Below, piece after piece: positions 1 to 17,532 of a stretch of DNA of 64,000 nucleotides (position 1 is the stretch's first letter; every line of letters begins with the position of its first letter). This stretch comes from a virus. Below the pieces are notes generated by a model. The model was not told the DNA's origin. It did no database searches and was given only the letters and a program-made list of their open reading frames with translations. The position numbers and the translations under genes were made by a program. The DNA lies in IMG/VR virus record IMGVR_UViG_3300021197_001365, positions 1-64,000 of that record; one strand, given 5' to 3'.

Positions 1-118
1 CATCATAGTCAAGAATCCTGACAAAAGTCCCTGAGTTAAATTTTACCTCTATAGTTTAAAAATTAAATTATACCGAGGTGGAGTTCGAATGTCAAGATGT
101 TTTTTTAGTTAGGAGTAA

Positions 119-143
119 TAAAAAAGGGGCCGTAGCCGACCCC
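119..143 (-). terminator. Rho-independent terminator of the TonB-receptor gene
   Basis: Read leftward, the strand shows a GGGG..CCCC hairpin (arms within 126-143, GCTA loop) followed by a run of T residues just past the receptor stop codon. This is a standard intrinsic terminator. The remaining 118 bases to the window edge hold no gene that I can see. Confidence 0.8.
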
Positions 144-148
144 TTGTA

Positions 149-2920
149 TTAGAACGTATAGTTAAATCCTATGCTGTAGTTTTTGCCATACATATCGTAC
201 TGGCTTAATTGAGATTCGTTTCCCCAGTAGTAATATTCTGGTCTATTGTTTAAGTTCACTGCCTCTGCTTTAACAGTGAAGTTATCATTAACAGCATATT
301 TGACTGTTAGGTCCCATTGTATAAAGTCACCAACAAATCTACTATTGTTAACACTTACTTCCCCAATGTCGCCATCTTCATCTGCTAACCAATCTAAGTA
401 ATCACTTCTATAGTTACCAGCAACTCTTATATCCCATGCACCTTTGTCGTAGCCAAAGTTAACGTTAGCAGCTTTATCGGCTAACTTACGGAACGAAGTT
501 GTAAATGATACATCATCTTCAAAGTTAAATGCGCTTTCACTGTCTGTTAGTGTAAAGTTAGTTGCTACATACAATCCATTTTCCCATCCGTATTGTGCAT
601 TAAGTTCTATGCCATTAATTCTGCTGTCATCTGCATTGATCCATGTTTCAACACCATCATTAAACGATATGCCGTTGAACACACCATTGCGTTGGTATGT
701 TGGATAAATTGCATTAGCAATACTCTTATGGAAGTAACCCACTGCAAAGTAAGTCATACCTTCTCCATAATATTCTAAACTTAAATCAAAGTTATCTGCT
801 TCGTATGGCTTTAGGTTTGGATTACCAATGCTACCACTTGTATCACCTGATGTGTCTACATCATAATCTGTGATAGGAGCAGTTTCTTTGAATCCTGGTC
901 TGCTTAAACCTCTCCACAATGCACCACGTACTTGCCAATTGTCTGTGAGCCAATGCTTAACAGTTACACTAGGAGCAACAAAGCCATAGTCATTCTCTGC
1001 ATAAGTTTTATTGCCGTCTTGGTCGTATGCTGTACTTTCAAAGTCAGTATGCTCATAACGTACACCTGCAATAATAGTAGTTTTTTCTAATTCAACTGTG
1101 CGTTGTGCATAAACACTATTAATTGTTTCATCAGTTATAAAATCTCTGCTGATGTCATCGCTGAAATCTACTGTCATTTGGTCAGTTAGACTTCTAAGGT
1201 TATATGTTTCCTGTGCAGTCATATGATTACCAAACACTTGATTTGGAAAGAACCAACCAGGCGCAGTTGTAAATTCAAAGTCTGCCATAGTCATATCGTC
1301 CCATTCATACGCAATAATATAATCATCTACATCCTTAGTTCTGCCTCTGTACTTGTAACCTACCTTCCATAACCCGTTGTCTGCGTTTATTTGAAATGTA
1401 GTTTCGCTATCTTTACTGACATTACTCCACATTTCAAAAGCATCAAACTCTAAGTTCTCTGAATTACGCAAAGTATCATCTACAGGTGTAACAAATGGAT
1501 GAACAGGATTGCTCCAATCAAATACTGCACCACTGTCTTTGTCGTAGTTTCTAAATGTAATGTCAGCATTATCGCTGTCATCTTCTTCAGCCCAACTATA
1601 ACTTAGTTGCGAGTCTACTGCCCAATCAGCCATATCAAATTCTGCACCAAGGTTCATAGCACCTATAGTTCTTGTTTCATATCGCTGTCTTGTTTCTGCA
1701 TCGTGTCTAACTCTGCTGGACAACATACTGTTTTCAAAAGGCTCAGCCATTTTGATTTTGCCATATTCATTTTTAAAACGAATCTCATCTTCTTCATACT
1801 GGTTGTACAAAATATTAGCAAATACCACAGCACCACTTTCTAACAATGTGTTGATGTCATAACTAAATCCGTAACGCTCTCTGGTTAAGTCATAATAGCG
1901 TAACTCAAAGTCATCATTCATGTATCCATCTTCCCAGCCAAATCCAGTTTCATTATTATAACTTTCAATGTTCTTTGAACTGTAAGTTAGTCCCATGATG
2001 TGAGCAGTGTTGTCTGTAATACTGTCGCCATATGTTACGCTAAAGTTAGGAGCTTGTTCATAGTCTGTATACTCCGCAAACTTACTGCTAACTTTTACTT
2101 TTAACAACATTTCATCTAAGTCAGTTGGCTTCTTGGTATTAAATTCAATTCTGCCGCCAATGCTGTCTGAATCCATTTCAGGTGTTAAAGTTTTTGAAAC
2201 TGTAATACTGTCCATAAGTTCAGTGGGTATGCCGTCCATTATTACTGAACGTCCGTTTTCAGGTGCAACCATACTAGCACCGTTTACTGCTACACTGTTT
2301 AAGTCTGAACTTAATCCTCTAATTGTAACATAACGTCCTTCGCCCTGATCATTTTCTACACTTATACCACTTAATCTTCTAATGGCGTCTGCGGCTGTTG
2401 TATCAGGAAAGTTGCCTAATGCATCTGAGTCTACAACACTGATAATACCATCAGCCATCATCTGTTTGTCTACTGCTCTCATAAGTGTTGCTCTGGTTCC
2501 TACAACAAGCACTTCTTCAACAGTAGGGTCGTACGTTGGAGTGTTATCTCTGTATTGTTGAAACTCTTCAACAACTTCTTCTATTGGTGCATTTACTAGA
2601 AGTACTCTTGCATTTACAATGCCCATTTCAGTTAATGCATCATATCTGTGGTGCCCATCAATAATATAATATTGCTGATCGATAACCAAAGGCCTATAAG
2701 TATTTTCTTGTGCCTTGATTAATCTCTTCTCTTGCTTCTTTAAGTTTTGAACTCGTTGAGTCTGCACAGGAATTAAACTGCTTACAGGTACTTCTGTTGC
2801 AGTAAATTCAAATTGTGATTGTTCTAGGATTTCTTGATTTAGTTGGGGGAGTTGATTTCTGTCATATTGTGCAAATACAATAGTAGGCACCAACAGCATT
2901 GCTAAAAATAAATAACGCAT
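149..2920 (-). CDS. TonB-dependent outer-membrane receptor with N-terminal ParB/Srx-like domain
   Basis: A 923-residue outer-membrane transporter. I chose the start at 2920 because it follows an AAAGGAG ribosome site and opens a signal peptide (MRYLFLAMLLVPTIVFA, cut about residue 17). An upstream in-frame ATG at 2956 would bury the signal. Residues about 45-120 look like a ParB/sulfiredoxin-fold domain with the motif DGHHRYDA at 88-95. A TonB box (EEVLVVG, 135-141), a plug domain (DAIRRLSGISVEN, RYVTIRGL) and a beta-barrel follow, ending in the C-terminal aromatic (NYTF) that BAM recognises. Family knowledge says such receptors import siderophores, haem, vitamin B12 or glycans; the ligand cannot be read here. 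A receptor in a phage genome is unusual, and so is a ParB-like domain facing the periplasm where some receptors carry an STN signalling domain. The gene is monocistronic with its own promoter and terminator. Confidence 0.9.
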   Translation of the reverse strand: MRYLFLAMLLVPTIVFAQYDRNQLPQLNQEILEQSQFEFTATEVPVSSLIPVQTQRVQNLKKQEKRLIKAQENTYRPLVIDQQYYIIDGHHRYDALTEMGIVNARVLLVNAPIEEVVEEFQQYRDNTPTYDPTVEEVLVVGTRATLMRAVDKQMMADGIISVVDSDALGNFPDTTAADAIRRLSGISVENDQGEGRYVTIRGLSSDLNSVAVNGASMVAPENGRSVIMDGIPTELMDSITVSKTLTPEMDSDSIGGRIEFNTKKPTDLDEMLLKVKVSSKFAEYTDYEQAPNFSVTYGDSITDNTAHIMGLTYSSKNIESYNNETGFGWEDGYMNDDFELRYYDLTRERYGFSYDINTLLESGAVVFANILYNQYEEDEIRFKNEYGKIKMAEPFENSMLSSRVRHDAETRQRYETRTIGAMNLGAEFDMADWAVDSQLSYSWAEEDDSDNADITFRNYDKDSGAVFDWSNPVHPFVTPVDDTLRNSENLEFDAFEMWSNVSKDSETTFQINADNGLWKVGYKYRGRTKDVDDYIIAYEWDDMTMADFEFTTAPGWFFPNQVFGNHMTAQETYNLRSLTDQMTVDFSDDISRDFITDETINSVYAQRTVELEKTTIIAGVRYEHTDFESTAYDQDGNKTYAENDYGFVAPSVTVKHWLTDNWQVRGALWRGLSRPGFKETAPITDYDVDTSGDTSGSIGNPNLKPYEADNFDLSLEYYGEGMTYFAVGYFHKSIANAIYPTYQRNGVFNGISFNDGVETWINADDSRINGIELNAQYGWENGLYVATNFTLTDSESAFNFEDDVSFTTSFRKLADKAANVNFGYDKGAWDIRVAGNYRSDYLDWLADEDGDIGEVSVNNSRFVGDFIQWDLTVKYAVNDNFTVKAEAVNLNNRPEYYYWGNESQLSQYDMYGKNYSIGFNYTF

Positions 2921-2963
2921 AATGCTCTCCTTTTGCTTTGGGTAAATTTTTACCACAGAAGAT

Positions 2964-2972
2964 ATTATACCA
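2964..2972 (-). promoter_or_regulatory. Extended -10 promoter of the receptor gene
   Basis: On the minus strand the sequence reads TGGTATAAT, an extended -10 element, about 45 bases upstream of the receptor start. No good -35 hexamer lies 17 bases further up (ATAAAA), which suits an extended -10 promoter. Confidence 0.6.
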
Positions 2973-3044
2973 CAAGATTGTTACAATTTTATGAAAACAC
3001 CGTTTAACGTTTTTGCTTTTTTTCCAAAGTGGTACGTGTGGGGG

Positions 3045-3058
3045 AGCGCGGCCGCGCT
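3045..3058. repeat. Perfect 14-bp GC palindrome
   Basis: AGCGCGGCCGCGCT is a perfect inverted repeat lying directly beside the Fur-box-like palindrome, between the leftward receptor gene and the rightward cassette. It could be a protein-binding site or the edge of the GC-rich segment; its role is unknown. Confidence 0.6.
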
Positions 3059-3059
3059 A

Positions 3060-3078
3060 AATGAGAATGAGTCTCATT
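3060..3078. promoter_or_regulatory. Fur-box-like palindrome 1
   Basis: The 19-mer AATGAGAATGAGTCTCATT is an inverted repeat with one mismatched pair. It matches the 7-1-7 form of the Fur box (TGAGAAT-N-ATTCTCA) at 14 of 15 positions. It sits between the divergent receptor promoter and the rightward promoter at 3149. It lies about 90 bp upstream of the receptor -10, farther than in classic repression, so control of the receptor is plausible but unproven. Confidence 0.5.
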
Positions 3079-3148
3079 ACCGCCCCCCCATACAGCAAAG
3101 ACCCCTGGCGGGCAAGCATTTTTTGTGACATATTACCACTTTTATTTC

Positions 3149-3177
3149 TTGCATTATGGCCCAGGATGGGGTACAAT
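3149..3177 (+). promoter_or_regulatory. Sigma70-type promoter of the GC-rich cassette
   Basis: TTGCAT and TACAAT are separated by 17 bases, about 30 bases upstream of the first small gene of the cassette. Confidence 0.6.
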
Positions 3178-3206
3178 AGGCACTTAATAAATCGAGGCGC
3201 TACGCT

Positions 3207-3311
3207 ATGACAACACTGCAAATTTTTATCATGCTCGGACTGGCATCACCCGCTCTAATTGCTGTGGCGTGGGGCATTTGGGATCAACGTCCAAGCGCGC
3301 GAAAATGGTAA
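3207..3311 (+). CDS. 34-residue membrane peptide
   Basis: ATG at 3207 opens a 34-residue peptide with one hydrophobic segment (residues about 5-23, IFIMLGLASPALIAVAWGI) and a basic tail (RPSARKW). It is the first reading frame after the promoter at 3149. No strong Shine-Dalgarno is visible (GAGGCG lies about 10 bases upstream). I do not recognise the family; it resembles the many single-pass micro-proteins of phage early regions. Confidence 0.5.
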   Translation: MTTLQIFIMLGLASPALIAVAWGIWDQRPSARKW

Positions 3312-3409
3312 TATTTCACAAAAATATATCTGGACTTCTGCGCGTCAATATGAGACAATTCATTTCAAGGTGGAGCGATGGGCGCTCGACCTCAACAAAA
3401 GGAGGCTCT

Positions 3410-3721
3410 ATGCCTTATTCAGAAAAGCAGGTTGTGGCACTGCAAAACGCCGCTACTCAATTCGGTACTCTCAACAGTGAGATTGCCGGTAAACTCGCGG
3501 CTGACCTTGGTCAGTCAAAGCGGAGCGTGATCGCTAAGATCGGCTCGCTCGGTTTGCCTTATAAGGCGGCCAAGCGTTCGGTGAAAGGCACTCGTGCCAC
3601 TAGCAAAGCGGAATATGTTGCCGCTATTGCCAAGGCGCTCGACGCTGATGCGTCGGAGCTGGCTGGCTTGGAAAAAGCCACCGCTCTCGCTCTCTCTGGC
3701 TTGCTGTCATCAATTCGATGA
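3410..3721 (+). CDS. Small HTH DNA-binding protein, paralogue A
   Basis: This 103-residue protein starts at 3410 after AAAAGGAGG. Residues about 3-50 form a helix-turn-helix (SEKQVVALQNA, then GQSKRSVIAKIGSLGLPY). Residues about 60-103 form a second helical unit (TSKAEYVAAIAKALD, LAGLEKATALALSGLL). The same two-part layout recurs at 6636, 8520 and 17083, so this is one member of a paralogous family within the phage. DNA binding is inferred from the HTH pattern; whether it regulates transcription or coats DNA is unknown. Its stop overlaps the next start (ATGA). Base composition is clearly more GC-rich than in its paralogues. Confidence 0.8.
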   Translation: MPYSEKQVVALQNAATQFGTLNSEIAGKLAADLGQSKRSVIAKIGSLGLPYKAAKRSVKGTRATSKAEYVAAIAKALDADASELAGLEKATALALSGLLSSIR

Positions 3722-3915
3722 TAGCGGTTATCGGCTGGATAGGGGCGCTCTGCATGGCAGGCGCTCCATTCATTATCGACACCGACGCGGGCAAGGTCGC
3801 CGCGATTGCTGGATTGGTATTATTAACGGTACAAGCGCTGGACATTCGGGCAATGAATCTGGTACTATTAAATCTGGCTGGAATTATAGGATATAGCTAT
3901 GCACTACTTTTTTGA
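3718..3915 (+). CDS. Small multi-pass membrane protein
   Basis: A 65-residue protein, almost entirely hydrophobic, with two or three likely membrane segments (MIAVIGWIGALCMAGAPFII; VAAIAGLVLLTVQAL; LVLLNLAGIIGYSYALL). Its ATG overlaps the preceding stop as ATGA and its end overlaps the next gene by 17 bases, so it is translationally coupled. Family not recognised; a holin or host-membrane modulator role is possible but unsupported. Confidence 0.65.
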   Translation: MIAVIGWIGALCMAGAPFIIDTDAGKVAAIAGLVLLTVQALDIRAMNLVLLNLAGIIGYSYALLF

Positions 3916-4372
3916 CCTCGACCATACGGTCATCGATTCGTCACACCGACAGATCACACGACCGGACGGCTCGCTTGACCTCGCCGCGTGGATTCACAAC
4001 AACACTCGCGCTAACATCATGGCAGACACTCTGCTACCGCTCGCCGCACAATGGCGCAAGGTAGATCGCAAGGGCGCGACTATCGTGATCTGTACCGCTC
4101 GCGTTATGGGTGAGCATGACTACGAATATCTGCGCGCAAATGGGTTGCGTTGGGACGCTTGCCTCTCGCGTCGATTGGGTGACAGCTCACCCGATGCGAA
4201 ATTAAAAGAGCGTATGATCCGCAACTATGCCGCTACATTTCCGGTATCATGGGCGCGGTTCTGCTCAACAGCCGTCTTTTTTGACGACAACAAAAATGTG
4301 CTTGAAATGCTTGATCGCATTGGCATAAAAGCGTATGATTCTATTTTACTCAACGAAAGGTTATCAGCATGA
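3899..4372 (+). CDS. HAD-superfamily phosphatase
   Basis: This 157-residue protein carries the HAD motif I DLDHT (residues 6-10), with Asp6 as predicted nucleophile and Asp8 as acid/base. A motif II-like TIVICTAR follows (about 81-88), then a downstream FFDDNKNV (about 128-135) that can supply the Mg-binding acidic residues. The layout resembles the phosphatase halves of phage polynucleotide kinase/phosphatases and small HAD phosphatases, but there is no kinase P-loop. The substrate, for example a DNA 3'-phosphate or a nucleotide, cannot be told. It overlaps both neighbours and is part of the GC-rich cassette. Confidence 0.75.
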   Translation: MHYFFDLDHTVIDSSHRQITRPDGSLDLAAWIHNNTRANIMADTLLPLAAQWRKVDRKGATIVICTARVMGEHDYEYLRANGLRWDACLSRRLGDSSPDAKLKERMIRNYAATFPVSWARFCSTAVFFDDNKNVLEMLDRIGIKAYDSILLNERLSA

Positions 4373-4869
4373 TTTTACGAAGTTACGACAAAGCACCAGA
4401 GATCACCCCGATTTCTGGCATGGCATGGCACTACGTTTGGGAATTGCTCGAATTTGGTGTTTTCAAAAATGGCTACGCTTGCCACGCATACGCCAACGGC
4501 GGGCATGGCGGTATTGAGCGCGTAACATGGTGTTTGCGAGATGTCGAGGACGCATTTGGCTACAATCGCGGAGAGCTTCACGCTCGCGTTTGGCGAATGA
4601 AGCTGGGCGAGAATGAGGAAGTTTTAGCCGCCGAGCAATTTGTCCACGCTCGCAACAAAGATGACAAGGCCATGCTGTATGACAAGCGCTGGCTGGACGT
4701 TGGCGGCAAAAGCGAATTTTACTTTTGCTCTGCCAAAACTGCGATGGCGCGGTTCACTAATTCCTATCGCAAATCCAATTTGCAGATTGGCGAGGGTGTC
4801 GTCGCTCACAAGCGAGCCAAGGGCATACACGGTTGCCCACTGCCCCGCACTTATGCGGTGACGGCGTGA
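4369..4869 (+). CDS. Conserved-looking protein of unknown function
   Basis: A 166-residue soluble protein, ATGA-coupled to the HAD phosphatase. It has several Cys and His residues (Cys48 in GYACHAYANGG, GGHGGIERVTW, FYFCSAKTAM, GIHGCPLPR) that could bind metal, but I cannot assign a family. Sharing an operon with a phosphatase hints at nucleic-acid or nucleotide processing; that is inference only. Confidence 0.65.
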   Translation: MILRSYDKAPEITPISGMAWHYVWELLEFGVFKNGYACHAYANGGHGGIERVTWCLRDVEDAFGYNRGELHARVWRMKLGENEEVLAAEQFVHARNKDDKAMLYDKRWLDVGGKSEFYFCSAKTAMARFTNSYRKSNLQIGEGVVAHKRAKGIHGCPLPRTYAVTA

Positions 4870-4958
4870 GATATCTTGCGCTGGCCTATTTGGTTTATTC
4901 TGTCACCACAGATCTAGCGATCTGGGGTGGCGCGCTTTACTACTTTTTCGGAGGATGA
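4866..4958 (+). CDS. 30-residue membrane peptide
   Basis: A GTG start overlaps the preceding stop (GTGA). The peptide MRYLALAYLVYSVTTDLAIW continues to a GGALYYFFGG end and is hydrophobic throughout, with one likely membrane pass. The tight overlap supports translation. Function unknown. Confidence 0.5.
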   Translation: MRYLALAYLVYSVTTDLAIWGGALYYFFGG

Positions 4959-4962
4959 AAAA

Positions 4963-5085
4963 ATGAGCCAACTGGAAAAAATCCAATTCACAATGGAAAT
5001 TATCCGCACGGTTTGCCCCGTCGTCATGGTGATACTGCAAATCGCCATCATCACCGGCCTTGTAATTATGGGCGATATGGGCTAG
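4963..5085 (+). CDS. 40-residue membrane peptide
   Basis: It starts at 4963 after a GGAGGATG ribosome site. An amphipathic N-terminus (MSQLEKIQFTMEIIR) leads into one hydrophobic span (VVMVILQIAIITGLVIM). It ends the rightward cassette six bases before the second Fur-box-like palindrome. Function unknown. Confidence 0.6.
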   Translation: MSQLEKIQFTMEIIRTVCPVVMVILQIAIITGLVIMGDMG

Positions 5086-5090
5086 GGCTA

Positions 5091-5109
5091 GATGAGAACC
5101 ATTCTCATT
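5091..5109. promoter_or_regulatory. Fur-box-like palindrome 2
   Basis: GATGAGAACCATTCTCATT contains TGAGAAC-C-ATTCTCA, an inverted repeat with one mismatched pair that matches the 7-1-7 Fur motif at 14 of 15 positions. It lies 40 bp upstream of the -35 element at 5149. There is no T-run, so it is not an intrinsic terminator. Confidence 0.5.
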
Positions 5110-5148
5110 TGGGCCAGGAAATAAAATAATCTTTTTTGCAAATAGGGC

Positions 5149-5178
5149 TTGACACCCCTGCATTTTTTGCGCTAAAAT
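5149..5178 (+). promoter_or_regulatory. Sigma70-type promoter
   Basis: TTGACA and TAAAAT are separated by 18 bases, about 45 bases upstream of the small acidic gene at 5222 and just downstream of Fur-box-like palindrome 2. Confidence 0.65.
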
Positions 5179-5221
5179 GTTTACATCAACTAGGGGATTG
5201 GCCCCATTTAAGGATAGAAAA

Positions 5222-5389
5222 ATGTCACACTACGTAAACGAAGCCAACGCCGAAGCCTGCTACGAAGAAGCCTGCGAAGCGGGTTACGCTTTTTTCGCCG
5301 AGGCGGACTGGGACGGCCAAGCGTTCGAGGCTTGGGTAAACTGGAAAACGGATGAGCTTCTTTCTGAGCTTCCCGACGGCTACCGTTAA
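5222..5389 (+). CDS. Small acidic protein
   Basis: A 55-residue strongly acidic, alanine- and aromatic-rich protein (EACYEEACEAGYAFFAEADW, ELLSELPDGYR). I chose the ATG at 5222, behind AAGGATAG, over an in-frame ATG at 5177, which falls on the -10 of its own promoter. Highly acidic small early proteins are often DNA mimics or inhibitors of host enzymes, but there is no direct evidence here. The stop codon is immediately followed by the parS-like 16-mer. Confidence 0.6.
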   Translation: MSHYVNEANAEACYEEACEAGYAFFAEADWDGQAFEAWVNWKTDELLSELPDGYR

Positions 5390-5405
5390 TGTTCCACATG
5401 GAACA
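5390..5405. promoter_or_regulatory. parS-like site
   Basis: TGTTCCACATGGAACA differs by one central base from the proteobacterial parS form TGTTCCACGTGGAACA. It stands in a gene-free control region. No parA or cytoplasmic parB gene is visible, so any ParB acting here would be the host's or lie outside the window. I found no second full match by eye. Confidence 0.45.
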
Positions 5406-5452
5406 CCTCGCCCAACTCCTTGATTTATCAGGGATTTCGGCGCGGGGGCGCC

Positions 5453-5472
5453 AGTAGTAGTGCGACGACGAT
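5453..5472. repeat. 20-bp direct repeat, copy 1 (operator candidate)
   Basis: AGTAGTAGTGCGACGACGAT recurs at 5590-5609 with a single G/A difference. This copy lies shortly downstream of the predicted start of the leftward promoter at 5495-5523. Confidence 0.7.
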
Positions 5473-5494
5473 TTTCTTTGGTGGTGCCTGCGCC

Positions 5495-5523
5495 ATTGTA
5501 CCAGTTCGAAAGCGATTTGTCAA
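5495..5523 (-). promoter_or_regulatory. Leftward sigma70 promoter 1
   Basis: On the minus strand TTGACA (5523-5518) and TACAAT (5500-5495) are 17 bases apart, with an A-rich stretch upstream of the -35. It points into the 3' side of the rightward cassette. Confidence 0.7.
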
Positions 5524-5584
5524 GTCTTTTTTGCGGGTGTGCCCCAAATTGTTTTAAGTTGCCCTGGTCTTAAAAATTGCGCCG

Positions 5585-5614
5585 ATTATAGTAGTAGTAC
5601 GACGACGATGTCAA
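5585..5614 (-). promoter_or_regulatory. Leftward sigma70 promoter 2
   Basis: TTGACA (5614-5609) and TATAAT (5590-5585) are 18 bases apart on the minus strand. The spacer is filled by the second copy of the 20-bp repeat, which makes that repeat a natural operator. Confidence 0.75.
5590..5609. repeat. 20-bp direct repeat, copy 2 (operator candidate)
   Basis: AGTAGTAGTACGACGACGAT occupies the spacer between the -35 and -10 of leftward promoter 2. Copy 1 is 137 bp away. Confidence 0.7.
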
Positions 5615-5685
5615 GTACTTTTTGCACATTTGCCCAAAATAATTCGACGCGCTAGTCTCTGCCAGACCCCGTGCCCAACCCTGGT

Positions 5686-5715
5686 ATTATATCATAACCC
5701 AGGCGGGGTTGTCAA
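5686..5715 (-). promoter_or_regulatory. Leftward sigma70 promoter 3
   Basis: TTGACA (5715-5710) and TATAAT (5691-5686) are 18 bases apart. The upstream block AAATAGTAC is shared with the leftward promoter at 11271-11299. Confidence 0.75.
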
Positions 5716-5740
5716 GTACTATTTAGGGTTTTCCTGCATA

Positions 5741-5770
5741 TTGACAACTTACGCGCACTTATGGTACTAT
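5741..5770 (+). promoter_or_regulatory. Weak rightward promoter
   Basis: TTGACA is followed after 18 bases by TACTAT, or after 21 bases by TATAAT. The spacing makes it weaker than the promoter at 5883. Confidence 0.4.
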
Positions 5771-5882
5771 AATTCGACAAAATTTGCTACAATTAGACAA
5801 AATAAACCTTGACACGGGAAGGTCGTGTGCGGCCCCCCGGAGTTCGTTTGCGTTATCCTGGCGACCAATTCGCAAAAAAGTG

Positions 5883-5911
5883 TTGACAACTTGCCCAAAC
5901 TTTAGTATAAT
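5883..5911 (+). promoter_or_regulatory. Rightward sigma70 promoter of the early region
   Basis: Consensus TTGACA and TATAAT with a 17-base spacer, about 30 bases upstream of the gene at 5938. Confidence 0.85.
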
Positions 5912-5937
5912 AGTTACCATAAATCGGAGGACTATGC

Positions 5938-6126
5938 ATGAACGATATTCAATTCGAAGCCTTTAGCTTGTACGCGGGTATGCGTATGGAAGGTATGCCT
6001 AAGCTGGATGCCTTTCTATATACTATACAGTGTATGCTTCCAGAGGACGACTACCCCAACGGATACGACGATGGTGCAGTAGAGCTGTACTCTTGGTTGC
6101 GTCAGAAGGTGAAGCTGGATGGCTAA
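5938..6126 (+). CDS. Small acidic protein of unknown function
   Basis: A 62-residue acidic protein starting at 5938 behind CGGAGG and a strong promoter. It contains FSLYAGMRMEGMPKLDAFLY and an acidic aromatic stretch (PEDDYPNGYDDGAVELYSWL). It overlaps the next gene by 8 bases. Family not recognised. Confidence 0.7.
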   Translation: MNDIQFEAFSLYAGMRMEGMPKLDAFLYTIQCMLPEDDYPNGYDDGAVELYSWLRQKVKLDG

Positions 6127-6553
6127 AGTTAAGTACATAACAAAAGCTAAACGCACATGGACTAAGCACAAACGACAGCTTGTGCGTAATGCGTTTAAGC
6201 ACGCTTTTTGGGAGATGAATCTGTACAAACTTGATGTACATATTGATATTCGTCTAGTGGGAACACCAAATGCCCCAGGAGCCTGCACAGATGCTGAAAC
6301 CAAGTACGTTGTGCATATTGATGGAACACAAGACCCAGAAGACATCGTTGAGACTCTGTTTCACGAACTGCAACACGTTGTTCAATACGCTCTTGGCTAT
6401 TTACAAGACGCAGAAAGTAAAGTATACTGGTTAGGTAACTGGTACACCGGCGATTATCAAGACACCGCTACCTCTGACTACTGGGATGCACCTTGGGAAG
6501 TAGAAGCTCGCCAGGTTGCATGGAATATGTCAGAAAATTACTACCAAAACTAA
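6119..6553 (+). CDS. HExxH zinc metalloprotease-like protein
   Basis: This 144-residue protein has a zinc-binding HExxH motif (ETLFHELQHVVQYALGY, HELQH about residues 79-83) and a downstream acidic segment (APWEVEARQVAW, about 124-135) whose glutamate could be the third ligand. This pattern matches small SprT- or minigluzincin-like metallopeptidases. Likely activity is cleavage of a host or phage protein in the cytoplasm; the substrate is unknown. The N-terminus is basic (KVKYITKAKRTWTKHKRQ). No signal peptide. It belongs to the operon begun at 5938. Confidence 0.75.
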   Translation: MAKVKYITKAKRTWTKHKRQLVRNAFKHAFWEMNLYKLDVHIDIRLVGTPNAPGACTDAETKYVVHIDGTQDPEDIVETLFHELQHVVQYALGYLQDAESKVYWLGNWYTGDYQDTATSDYWDAPWEVEARQVAWNMSENYYQN

Positions 6554-6561
6554 AAAAATTG

Positions 6562-6590
6562 TTGACAAAATGCTAAAACTACTCTATAAT
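6562..6590 (+). promoter_or_regulatory. Sigma70-type promoter
   Basis: TTGACA and TATAAT with a 17-base spacer, following an A-run, 45 bases upstream of the HTH gene at 6636. Confidence 0.85.
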
Positions 6591-6635
6591 ATATTTTCAA
6601 AAGTTGGAAAACAAACATTTTCGGGAGAAAAATTT

Positions 6636-6953
6636 ATGTCTGAAGCTACCAAAGTTGTAAACTACACTGACGAAATGGTTGAGACCATCGTTGCTACCTA
6701 CGAAGCTGCCCCTGAGCGCGCTACTGTTGACGCCCTTGCACAAAAATTTGGCAAGACTTCTCGTTCTATCATCGCTAAGCTGTCTACGCTTGGTATCTAT
6801 CAAGCTCCGGCTCGTGTTACCAAAACAGGTGTTCCTGTTGTCAAGAAGGAGACTTTGGTTGCTGAGATCAACAGCAAGCTCGGTGTTGAACTGCCTTCTC
6901 TGGTCAAGGCTAACAAGCAAGACCTCGAAGCACTTTTTGCGGCTCTCAGCTGA
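6636..6953 (+). CDS. Small HTH DNA-binding protein, paralogue B
   Basis: A 105-residue protein with its own promoter and terminator. I chose the ATG at 6636 because GGGAG lies just upstream and the longer frame begins inside the previous gene. It has the family layout: an N-terminal HTH (YTDEMVETIVATYEAAPE, then GKTSRSIIAKLSTLGIYQ) and a C-terminal helical unit (KKETLVAEINSKLGVELPSL, ANKQDLEALFAAL). Strong signals and separate transcription suggest an abundant product, possibly a regulator or a nucleoid-like protein. Confidence 0.85.
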   Translation: MSEATKVVNYTDEMVETIVATYEAAPERATVDALAQKFGKTSRSIIAKLSTLGIYQAPARVTKTGVPVVKKETLVAEINSKLGVELPSLVKANKQDLEALFAALS

Positions 6954-8519: not shown

Positions 8520-8828
8520 ATGAACTATACAAAAGACCAAACAGAGTACATGATTGAGAAGTACAAGACAAACCCGTCTAGGGATACAGTAGAGGAGCTA
8601 GCAGATGAATTTTCGAAGAGTATTAAGTCGATTATTGGCAAGTTATCACGGGAGGGTGTATATCGCAGAGAGGTCTACAGAACCAAAACCGGAGAGAACC
8701 CCGTTACGAAAGTCGAGATTGTATCCAATATTGCTGATGCGCTTGGAATCGAAATTGACAATTTGGCTGGTCTCGAGAAAGCTCCAAAAGCAACTCTCAA
8801 AGCAATCGAAAGAGTACTATCAGAATAA
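8520..8828 (+). CDS. Small HTH DNA-binding protein, paralogue C
   Basis: A 102-residue protein starting directly at the base after the upstream stop. The N-terminal HTH (MNYTKDQTEYMIEKYKTNPS, then SKSIKSIIGKLSREGVYR) and the C-terminal unit (TKVEIVSNIADALGIEIDNL, GLEKAPKATLKAIERVL) align closely with paralogues A and B. The linker RTKTGENPVTK is also shared in type with RVTKTGVPVVKK of B. Predicted to bind DNA. Confidence 0.85.
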   Translation: MNYTKDQTEYMIEKYKTNPSRDTVEELADEFSKSIKSIIGKLSREGVYRREVYRTKTGENPVTKVEIVSNIADALGIEIDNLAGLEKAPKATLKAIERVLSE

Positions 8829-12968: not shown

Positions 12969-13092
12969 AACATATTTTCAACATTTAGTAGGCGCCTGGA
13001 GAGTAGCTTTTATACTTCTTGTGCACGGACTTCTACCAAATGTATGGAAGGATAGAGCGAGTGAAGAAATATGTACTCAGAAAAGGTATTAG
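12934..13092 (+). CDS. DUF6356-like membrane protein
   Basis: A 52-residue protein with YFQHLVGAWRVAFILLVHGL followed by LPNVWKDRAS. This H-L-x-x-A ... L-x-HGLLP ... AS pattern matches my recollection of the DUF6356 family, found in proteobacteria and their phages. One membrane segment; function unknown. It overlaps the previous gene by 35 bases and IscU by 22 bases, so it is translated in a tight chain. Confidence 0.6.
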   Translation: MAIDNHLNEINKTYFQHLVGAWRVAFILLVHGLLPNVWKDRASEEICTQKRY

Positions 13093-13451
13093 ATCATTAT
13101 GAAAATCCCCGGAATGTCGGAAAACTTGACAAAAATGATGAAGATGTCGGAACGGGCCTCACAGGTGCTCCAGCATGTGGAGACGTCATGCAACTTCAAA
13201 TCCGAGTATCGACCGACGGAATTATTGAAGATGCTAAATTCAAAACTTACGGATGCGGCAGTGCTATTGCTTCTTCATCACTACTCACAGAATGGGTTAG
13301 AGGAAAGTCCCTTGACGAAGCGGGAAAGATCAGCAATGTCCAAATTGCTCAAGAATTATCACTTCCGCCAGTAAAAATACATTGTAGCGTATTAGCGGAA
13401 GATGCTATCAAAGCAGCCATCACGGACTATAGAACTAAACATGGGGCCTAA
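13071..13451 (+). CDS. iscU: IscU iron-sulphur cluster scaffold
   Basis: This 126-residue protein is a full-length IscU, recognisably close to the proteobacterial housekeeping form: MYSEKVLDHYENPRNVG at the start, GAPACGDVM (Cys36, Asp38), KTYGCGSAIASSS (Cys62) and KIHCSVLAEDAI (His104, Cys105). The LPPVK loop (98-102) that the chaperone HscA recognises is intact. IscU receives sulphur from IscS and iron, builds a 2Fe-2S cluster and passes it on with HscA/HscB. No other isc gene is seen here, so it would have to use host IscS, HscA and HscB. The gene lies between a chain of membrane micro-genes and the lysozyme, overlapping both neighbours. Likely acquired from a host and kept under selection, since every key residue is present. 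Confidence 0.95.
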   Translation: MYSEKVLDHYENPRNVGKLDKNDEDVGTGLTGAPACGDVMQLQIRVSTDGIIEDAKFKTYGCGSAIASSSLLTEWVRGKSLDEAGKISNVQIAQELSLPPVKIHCSVLAEDAIKAAITDYRTKHGA

Positions 13452-17028: not shown

Positions 17029-17058
17029 TTGACATTCTTGTTATTTTTGTACTATAAT
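17029..17058 (+). promoter_or_regulatory. Sigma70-type promoter
   Basis: AAAAATAGTTC, then TTGACA and TATAAT with an 18-base spacer, 25 bases upstream of the gene at 17083. Confidence 0.85.
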
Positions 17059-17082
17059 ATAGTCTTGAAAATGAGGAAAGAA

Positions 17083-17532
17083 ATGTCTGACCGATTTTAT
17101 TTACAACAACTACAAGTTCTGGGTGGTTGCCCAGGTTCACGAAACAAAAAGAGGAAGCGCAGAATGGCGTGGGACGACGATAAAAAAGCACAAGCAGTAT
17201 CTATGTACGAAGAGCAAGACCCTACTCCCGAGACCTCCATGGAGATTGTAAAAGCAATCGCAGAGGAGCTTGAAGAGTCACCAAATGGTGTTCGTATGAT
17301 TCTTACCAAAGCTGGAGTTTATGTAAAGAAGACCCCCGCTTCTGGTGGCAGCAAAGCTGGCACGAGTGGTGGTAGTGGTGGGGGCCGCGTATCAAAGGCT
17401 GCCGCACAAGAATCATTAGTTGCGGCTATCACAGATGCTGGTCAAGAAGTTGATGAGGATGTAATTTCAAAGTTGACGGGAAAAGCAGCTCAATACTTTA
17501 CCACTATTATTGCTAACGTAAACTCAAACTAA
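17083..17532 (+). CDS. HTH DNA-binding protein, paralogue D
   Basis: A 149-residue protein starting at 17083 behind GAGGAAAG. A short basic N-terminal extension (VLGGCPGSRNKKRKRRM) precedes the HTH (WDDDKKAQAVSMYEEQDP, then SPNGVRMILTKAGVYVKK). A glycine/serine-rich linker (17339-17391; GGSKAGTSGGSGGG) leads to the same C-terminal helical unit as in paralogues A-C (AAAQESLVAAITDAGQEVDE). A flexible linker between two folded units suggests DNA binding plus oligomerisation. It has its own promoter and a strong terminator. Confidence 0.82.
   Translation: MSDRFYLQQLQVLGGCPGSRNKKRKRRMAWDDDKKAQAVSMYEEQDPTPETSMEIVKAIAEELEESPNGVRMILTKAGVYVKKTPASGGSKAGTSGGSGGGRVSKAAAQESLVAAITDAGQEVDEDVISKLTGKAAQYFTTIIANVNSN

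Follow-up and report, generated by a model that had tools for sequence, protein, structure and literature searches.

A Phage-Encoded TonB-Dependent Receptor with a ParB/Srx-Fold Module, Carried as a Putative Phosphate-Controlled Uptake Cassette

RESULTS

The window, the whole 64,000-nucleotide stretch analyzed here, corresponds to bases 1 to 64000 of a 77,735-bp IMG/VR record and encodes near its start a 923-aa TonB-dependent receptor (TBDR) of the TIGR01782 class (positions 149 to 2920, minus strand, as are all parts and signals of the gene given below). The product scores 441.9 bits against NCBIfam TIGR01782 (cutoff, 310) over residues 134 to 923, and Pfam recognizes a plug (PF07715, E = 8e-15; residues 154 to 256, positions 2153 to 2461) and a TonB barrel (PF00593, E = 4e-36; Pfam span 443 to 890, positions 251 to 1594). 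Plug and barrel are taken from these profile matches because a full-length AlphaFold2 model built with 8 sequences reached a pLDDT of only 46. By sequence, the protein also has a signal peptide of 17 residues (2870 to 2920), with a hydrophobic core and an A-x-A type site that place cleavage, by eye, at VFA/QYD, a pattern found in most homologues; a TonB box, EEVLVVG (residues 135 to 141, positions 2498 to 2518), preceded by a linker; and an aromatic C terminus (...NYTF). The open reading frame and profiles thus agree with the complete outer-membrane receptor, from signal peptide to terminal Phe, that an earlier note on this DNA had described.

The gene carries its own expression signals. The ribosome-binding site AAAGGAGA (2926 to 2933) points to the ATG at 2920 as the start, making a longer GTG start at 2956 less likely. 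Upstream lie a perfect -10 element, TATAAT (2964 to 2969), and, 10 bp before it, the last half-site of a Pho-box-like tandem repeat, TTTTCATAAAA TTGTAACAATC (2976 to 2997), recognized by its matrix score and by comparison with relatives. Directly 3' of the stop codon is a predicted intrinsic terminator (120 to 145; fold of -17.3 kcal/mol, z = -4.2).

Between the signal peptide and the TonB box, residues 18 to 125 (2546 to 2869) form a predicted periplasmic module of the ParB/Srx fold. The N-terminal 146 aa alone pass the cutoff for PF08857 (ParBc_2; 25.3 versus 23.6), AlphaFold2 modeled residues 18 to 134 with a pLDDT of 87.2 and a pTM of 0.80, and the best PDB matches of this model in Foldseek are pNOB8-type ParB-N, human sulfiredoxin, Noc, CTP-ParB, and SerK (5k5d, E = 2.8e-6, TM = 0.60; Srx 1xw4, E = 6e-5). 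These results uphold the ParB/sulfiredoxin-like domain proposed in the earlier note, as opposed to an ordinary STN or unrelated fold at residues 45 to 120. No STN profile matches the receptor, and the architecture is unusual in that a ParB/Srx fold sits where an STN domain would be.

The module is not a ParB partition protein: helix-turn-helix and centromere-binding parts are absent, and its approximately 108 aa lead into the TonB box and receptor. Sulfiredoxins have a catalytic Cys within the motif G-C-H-R; this Cys is absent, and all members of alignment A2 have D-G-H-H-R, which is invariant in the six TBDR-fused modules (DGHHRYDA in the window, 2636 to 2659). Because the corresponding loop contacts nucleotide phosphates in Srx and SerK, this invariance makes a role with a phosphorylated ligand attractive; a kinase role is unlikely, given the lack of an ATP supply in the periplasm. 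Ligand binding or processing by the module is a tentative and rather doubtful assignment, and at least one phage homologue, L003, does without the module.

The surrounding genome encodes T5-like replication proteins (DNA polymerase, split NAD ligase, SbcCD, and RNR) together with a tape measure protein, a portal, and TerL. TerL is 49 to 50% identical to those of Pectobacterium phage My1 and Vibrio phage VspSw_1, and the DNA polymerase is 43% identical to those of phages such as VspSw_1 and VEc33. The proteins scanned included no recognized lysogeny gene, in keeping with the earlier description of the phage as lytic looking. The ends of the record do not overlap, but relatives join homologues of its right-end genes to the receptor locus, so that the record appears to represent the greater part of a single genome, cut open close to that locus. 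Positions 3000 to 6000 are GC rich (0.44 to 0.57, against 0.39), and the phage genes there also occur in relatives L158 to L163. Four small proteins (3407 to 3721, 6516 to 6953, 8520 to 8828, and 17029 to 17532) look alike by eye and apparently represent a repeated gene family; the first matches phrog_1725, a DNA binding protein.

An IscU-type Fe-S scaffold gene (13071 to 13451; TIGR01999 above cutoff) of the T5-like window phage recurs, 82 to 85% alike, in receptor-bearing phages of the T4-like type (L008:16158-16541 and L096:16302-16691). By eye, secreted, Hsp20-like, and lysozyme-like proteins and IscU are common to the T5-like window phage (11563 to 14035) and the T4-like G115 (L096:11276-16691), suggesting that phages of one host group draw on a common gene pool.

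Relatives of the receptor occur in about 17 other IMG/VR records (ten from the first viral scan and further ones from later scans), within T4-like and T5-like gene orders of unrelated ocean phages. The gene comes after gp23, the T4-like major capsid gene, in L004 to L009 and lies in a T4-like neighborhood in L002; in L003 and L010 it sits between helicase and SbcD homologues, adjoining SbcD/SbcC genes whose DNA is 71% identical to window positions 28.0 to 30.4 kb. The earlier note had proposed looking for the same domain order in phages and marine bacteria: most phage relatives have the ParB-fused receptor, the bacterial relatives seen all lack the module, and sequence searches of the bacteria examined did not turn up the combination. 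A gene for a putative lipoprotein carrying a metallopeptidase domain of the reprolysin-like kind (PF13582; L007:12781-14472 and L006:6222-7871, both minus strand, and L096:548-2215) immediately follows the receptor in L005 to L008 and shares the T4-like contig with it in L096.

Comparison of the flanks with L158 to L163 shows one locus in three states: this receptor, another receptor, or none. L158 and L159 span both flanks (window 88 to 137 at 94% and 2927 to 3138 at 80%) and hold between them a nonhomologous receptor of 730 aa (PF00593, E = 7e-30; L158:5010-7202, minus strand, and also in L159), a second phage-encoded TBDR behind the same promoter block; L160 to L163 have no receptor there. 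Porticoccaceae relatives of the L158 receptor are only 30 to 39% identical, and most of its relatives lie near sigma/anti-sigma-like genes (by eye), without clear phosphorus genes. A PPK2 gene (PF03976) is located a few genes from the locus in T5-like relatives (L158:9278-9880 and L162:9078-9677). Phosphorus genes in these lineages comprise PPK2 in three related phage records and PhoH in G115; phytase, PstS, and PPK2 were sought in the window phage, and none was found.

The receptor DNAs of the T5-like window phage and the T4-like L002 are 94.8% identical from the terminator to residue 18, without a single mismatch over approximately the opening 110 bp of the mature coding sequence. This identity ends at the signal-peptide cleavage site, a breakpoint showing that the gene body is exchanged whereas each phage retains its own signal peptide and promoter.

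PhoB sites consist of 11-bp units repeated in tandem. Within 160 bp upstream of the receptors, repeats at a lag of 11 reach a z of 6.9 in 8 phage and 9.1 in 10 bacterial sequences, with all other lags from 7 to 16 within 2.6; this lag was selected after the repeats had been seen by eye, and the phage promoters are related and not fully independent. A Pho matrix made from bacterial units and the familiar E. coli consensus, with no phage sequence in it, gives combined P values for the receptor upstream regions of 1e-11 against random windows and 3e-9 against upstream regions of other phage open reading frames (Fisher). The sites in the window rank second and third best in 77.7 kb on both strands, with the layout TTTCAT-N5-TGTAAC-N10-TATAAT. 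The 10-bp spacing to the -10 element is clear only in the window and L003, and most phage Pho boxes are degenerate, with those of G115, L003, and L004 scoring weakly. The promoter block TTTTCATAAAATTG-AACAAT ... TATAAT is kept in L158 and L159, which have another receptor, and is missing in L160, L162, and L163, which have none; this comparison of receptor-bearing and receptor-less relatives is the cleanest evidence on the predicted regulation. Phage Pho boxes predicted without binding assays are unreliable, and cyanophage pstS is controlled by the host PhoBR (PMC10976474).

Two further elements were noted. A palindrome, AATGAGACTCATTCTCATT (window 3060 to 3078), in a GC-rich intergenic block varies hardly at all among six related phages, whether they have a receptor or not. 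It resembled a Fur box, but control by Fur and iron was rejected, as conservation in receptor-less relatives assigns the palindrome to the phage core; nor does it occur upstream of other phage receptors. Beside the G115 receptor, a gene for a 92-aa secreted protein (L096:10797-11075, minus strand) has the third-best Pho-box score in 160 kb just upstream.

The closest cellular receptors, from SAR92-type (Porticoccaceae) metagenome-assembled genomes, are 58 to 68% identical over residues 134 to 923 only, and all lack the ParB module. A maximum-likelihood tree unites all eight phage receptors with L089 (support, 84/95), which branches from within the phage group at an unresolved fork, so that the phage copies do not strictly form a clade. 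L003 is nested with the window and L002 receptors (support, 100/100), suggesting that it lost the module.

Receptor matches occur in 15 of 112 Porticoccaceae genomes. A phytase homologue lies directly after the receptor on the same strand in 12 of the 12 Porticoccaceae loci with full context (ten close homologues, L090 to L092 and L122 to L128, and two at 35 to 39%, L129 and L130), and Pfam confirmed PF02333 for two of these phytases (E = 1e-47 and better). The closest homologue, L089 (68%), is near an alkaline phosphatase gene (PF00245, E = 2e-129) and not a phytase gene, so that the ligand could be another phosphate ester; the more distant L131 (30%) is beside phnW/phnX-like genes, by eye. 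Glycoside hydrolases were not noticed among the neighbors of the cellular relatives. Judged by synteny with phytase and alkaline phosphatase, the cellular homologue serves phosphorus acquisition. The phytase linkage belongs to the cellular homologues and not to the phage gene: neither phytase nor PstS finds a match in the phage records, and phosphate release would rely on host enzymes. Phytate has been proposed, by the same reasoning, as the substrate of a marine TBDT beside a phytase (PMC3400609). For the phage receptor, an inositol phosphate is a candidate ligand with slightly less than an even chance.

The nearest nonreceptor relatives of the ParB/Srx module are phage proteins that lack signal peptides: L025 to L029, of 107 aa, and a broad group sharing the motif DGHHRW. 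A scan of genome contigs with two narrow patterns found no bacterial source, and a search of 112 Porticoccaceae genomes gave only 2 weak matches; a bacterial origin was discounted on these results. Given the phage relatives of the module and the near absence of such domains from the Porticoccaceae genomes, its fusion to the receptor probably arose in phages, with the caveat that the contig patterns were narrow.

DISCUSSION

The receptor is real and unusual and presents a testable mechanism. From sequence comparisons, we consider it probable that the gene is a moron cassette for phosphate-starvation-controlled uptake of organic phosphate under host PhoB. As in phage morons, it has its own promoter (by sequence only) and terminator, and at the corresponding site some relatives have a receptor and others do not. 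With this cassette, the infected cell would build an outer-membrane transporter for phosphorylated organics, most likely inositol phosphates (phytate) or similar esters.

Based on the tree and synteny, an ancestral phage probably took the receptor from the phytase operon of SAR92-type bacteria, and a module, of phage type to judge from its relatives, was inserted between the signal peptide and TonB box. The breakpoints in DNA identity show the mature gene passing in one piece among T4-like and T5-like phages, each retaining its local promoter and signal peptide. Host PhoB, as the Pho boxes imply, would turn the cassette on when phosphate is short. The receptor, powered by host TonB, could then import phosphate esters to the periplasm, where host phytase or phosphatase would free phosphate for phage DNA synthesis; active transport is favored by the intactness of the receptor, from signal peptide through TonB box and plug to barrel. 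More speculatively, and with low probability, the periplasmic module might bind the phosphorylated ligand or tune transport. It is unlikely that this phage domain binds or chemically processes the incoming ester in place of the phytase of the host operon, the whole being switched by host PhoB. Among the three functions that the earlier note had offered, feeding of the infected cell is favored by the phytase and phosphatase neighbors and the Pho-box promoters, but no positive evidence emerged for replacement of a host receptor or for a block to superinfection through TonB.

Other substrates would make the phosphate context of the relatives incidental. Import of iron, vitamins, or glycans is improbable, although several observations point that way. 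The Fur-like palindrome, the IscU Fe-S genes of the window, L008, and G115, and the ability of phytate to chelate iron (PMC3400609) would suit iron import, but the palindrome is shared with receptor-less relatives and is not found upstream of other phage receptors. TIGR01782 receptors include many carbohydrate transporters, which would suit glycans; the cellular relatives, however, have phytase or phosphatase genes as neighbors and no glycoside hydrolase that was noticed. The receptor might instead exclude or mask against superinfecting phages by competing for TonB or covering the surface, or the ParB/Srx module might trap incoming DNA in the periplasm or act on it there as a nuclease. T5-type phages use TonB-dependent receptors, a T5 lipoprotein blocks the phage's own receptor, and some ParB-like proteins are DNases. 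Nevertheless, exclusion is quite improbable: the promoter is of a kind expected for nutrient control, the receptor retains a full TonB box, plug, and barrel, and L158 has a nonhomologous receptor behind the same promoter, while a nuclease or trap is at odds with the lack of the module in L003.

The earlier note had also raised the prospect of a host fragment misjoined to the phage contig. The gene does lie at the contig end (position 149 of 77,735), and near 3 kb the GC content rises from 0.34 to at least 0.47. This reading is hardly credible and was dismissed, because L158 and L159 hold both receptor flanks at one locus and because homologues adjoin the T4-like major capsid gene, other T4-like genes, or helicase and SbcD homologues. 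Codon usage of the receptor also resembles that of the phage (cosine, 0.90 to 0.91), although SAR92 codon usage is equally close.

The phage phosphate genes described to date (such as pstS, phoA, and phoH) have their sites of action at the inner membrane, in the periplasm, or in the cytoplasm. If the phosphate-uptake cassette is correct, phages also reprogram, at the outer membrane, which organic matter the infected cell takes in, here phosphorus in SAR92-type bacteria of the surface ocean. Two more ideas can be tested: that outer-membrane proteins are interchangeable cassettes behind one phosphate-responsive phage promoter, and that a ParB/Srx domain has a function outside the cytoplasm.

A literature search for ParB-TBDR fusions or phage TonB receptors, with subscription literature and preprints outside its scope, returned only reports of megaphage SusC, and, by text search, TonB is named neither in a catalogue of AMGs from the global ocean (PMC11360552) nor in a study of phosphorus and soil phages (PMC10987575). 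Phage TBDRs were thus known from megaphages, and the ParB architecture, regulation, and swap pattern appear to be new. The megaphage SusC-type TBDRs (Mar_Mega_1, LR745206) are likewise receptors in a phage genome, but the LR745206 TBDR gives only a 22.5% match to the window receptor, and the passages on these receptors mention no ParB module, Pho box, or swap locus (PMC9723777). Among cellular systems, the receptors of SAR92 phytase operons (TIGR01782, TonB-Xanth-Caul) share the plug, barrel, and TonB box, with up to 68% identity over residues 134 to 923; those seen lack the ParB/Srx module, whereas the phage copies lack the phytase gene. STN-bearing transducers of the FecA type similarly place an extra periplasmic domain before the TonB box, but its fold differs, and no sigma/anti-sigma genes were noticed beside the window receptor. 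Members of the ParB/Srx superfamily (ParB-N, sulfiredoxin, SerK, and SbnI) share with the module their fold and a G-x-H-R type motif; unlike them, it is secreted, receptor fused, and without a helix-turn-helix, with His, by motif, at the position of the catalytic Cys of Srx. The cyanophage pstS, phoA, and phoH genes under host PhoBR (PMC10976474) are also phage phosphorus-supply genes with Pho-box promoters, but the window receptor would act at the outer membrane, probably on organic esters, and likely in gammaproteobacterial hosts.
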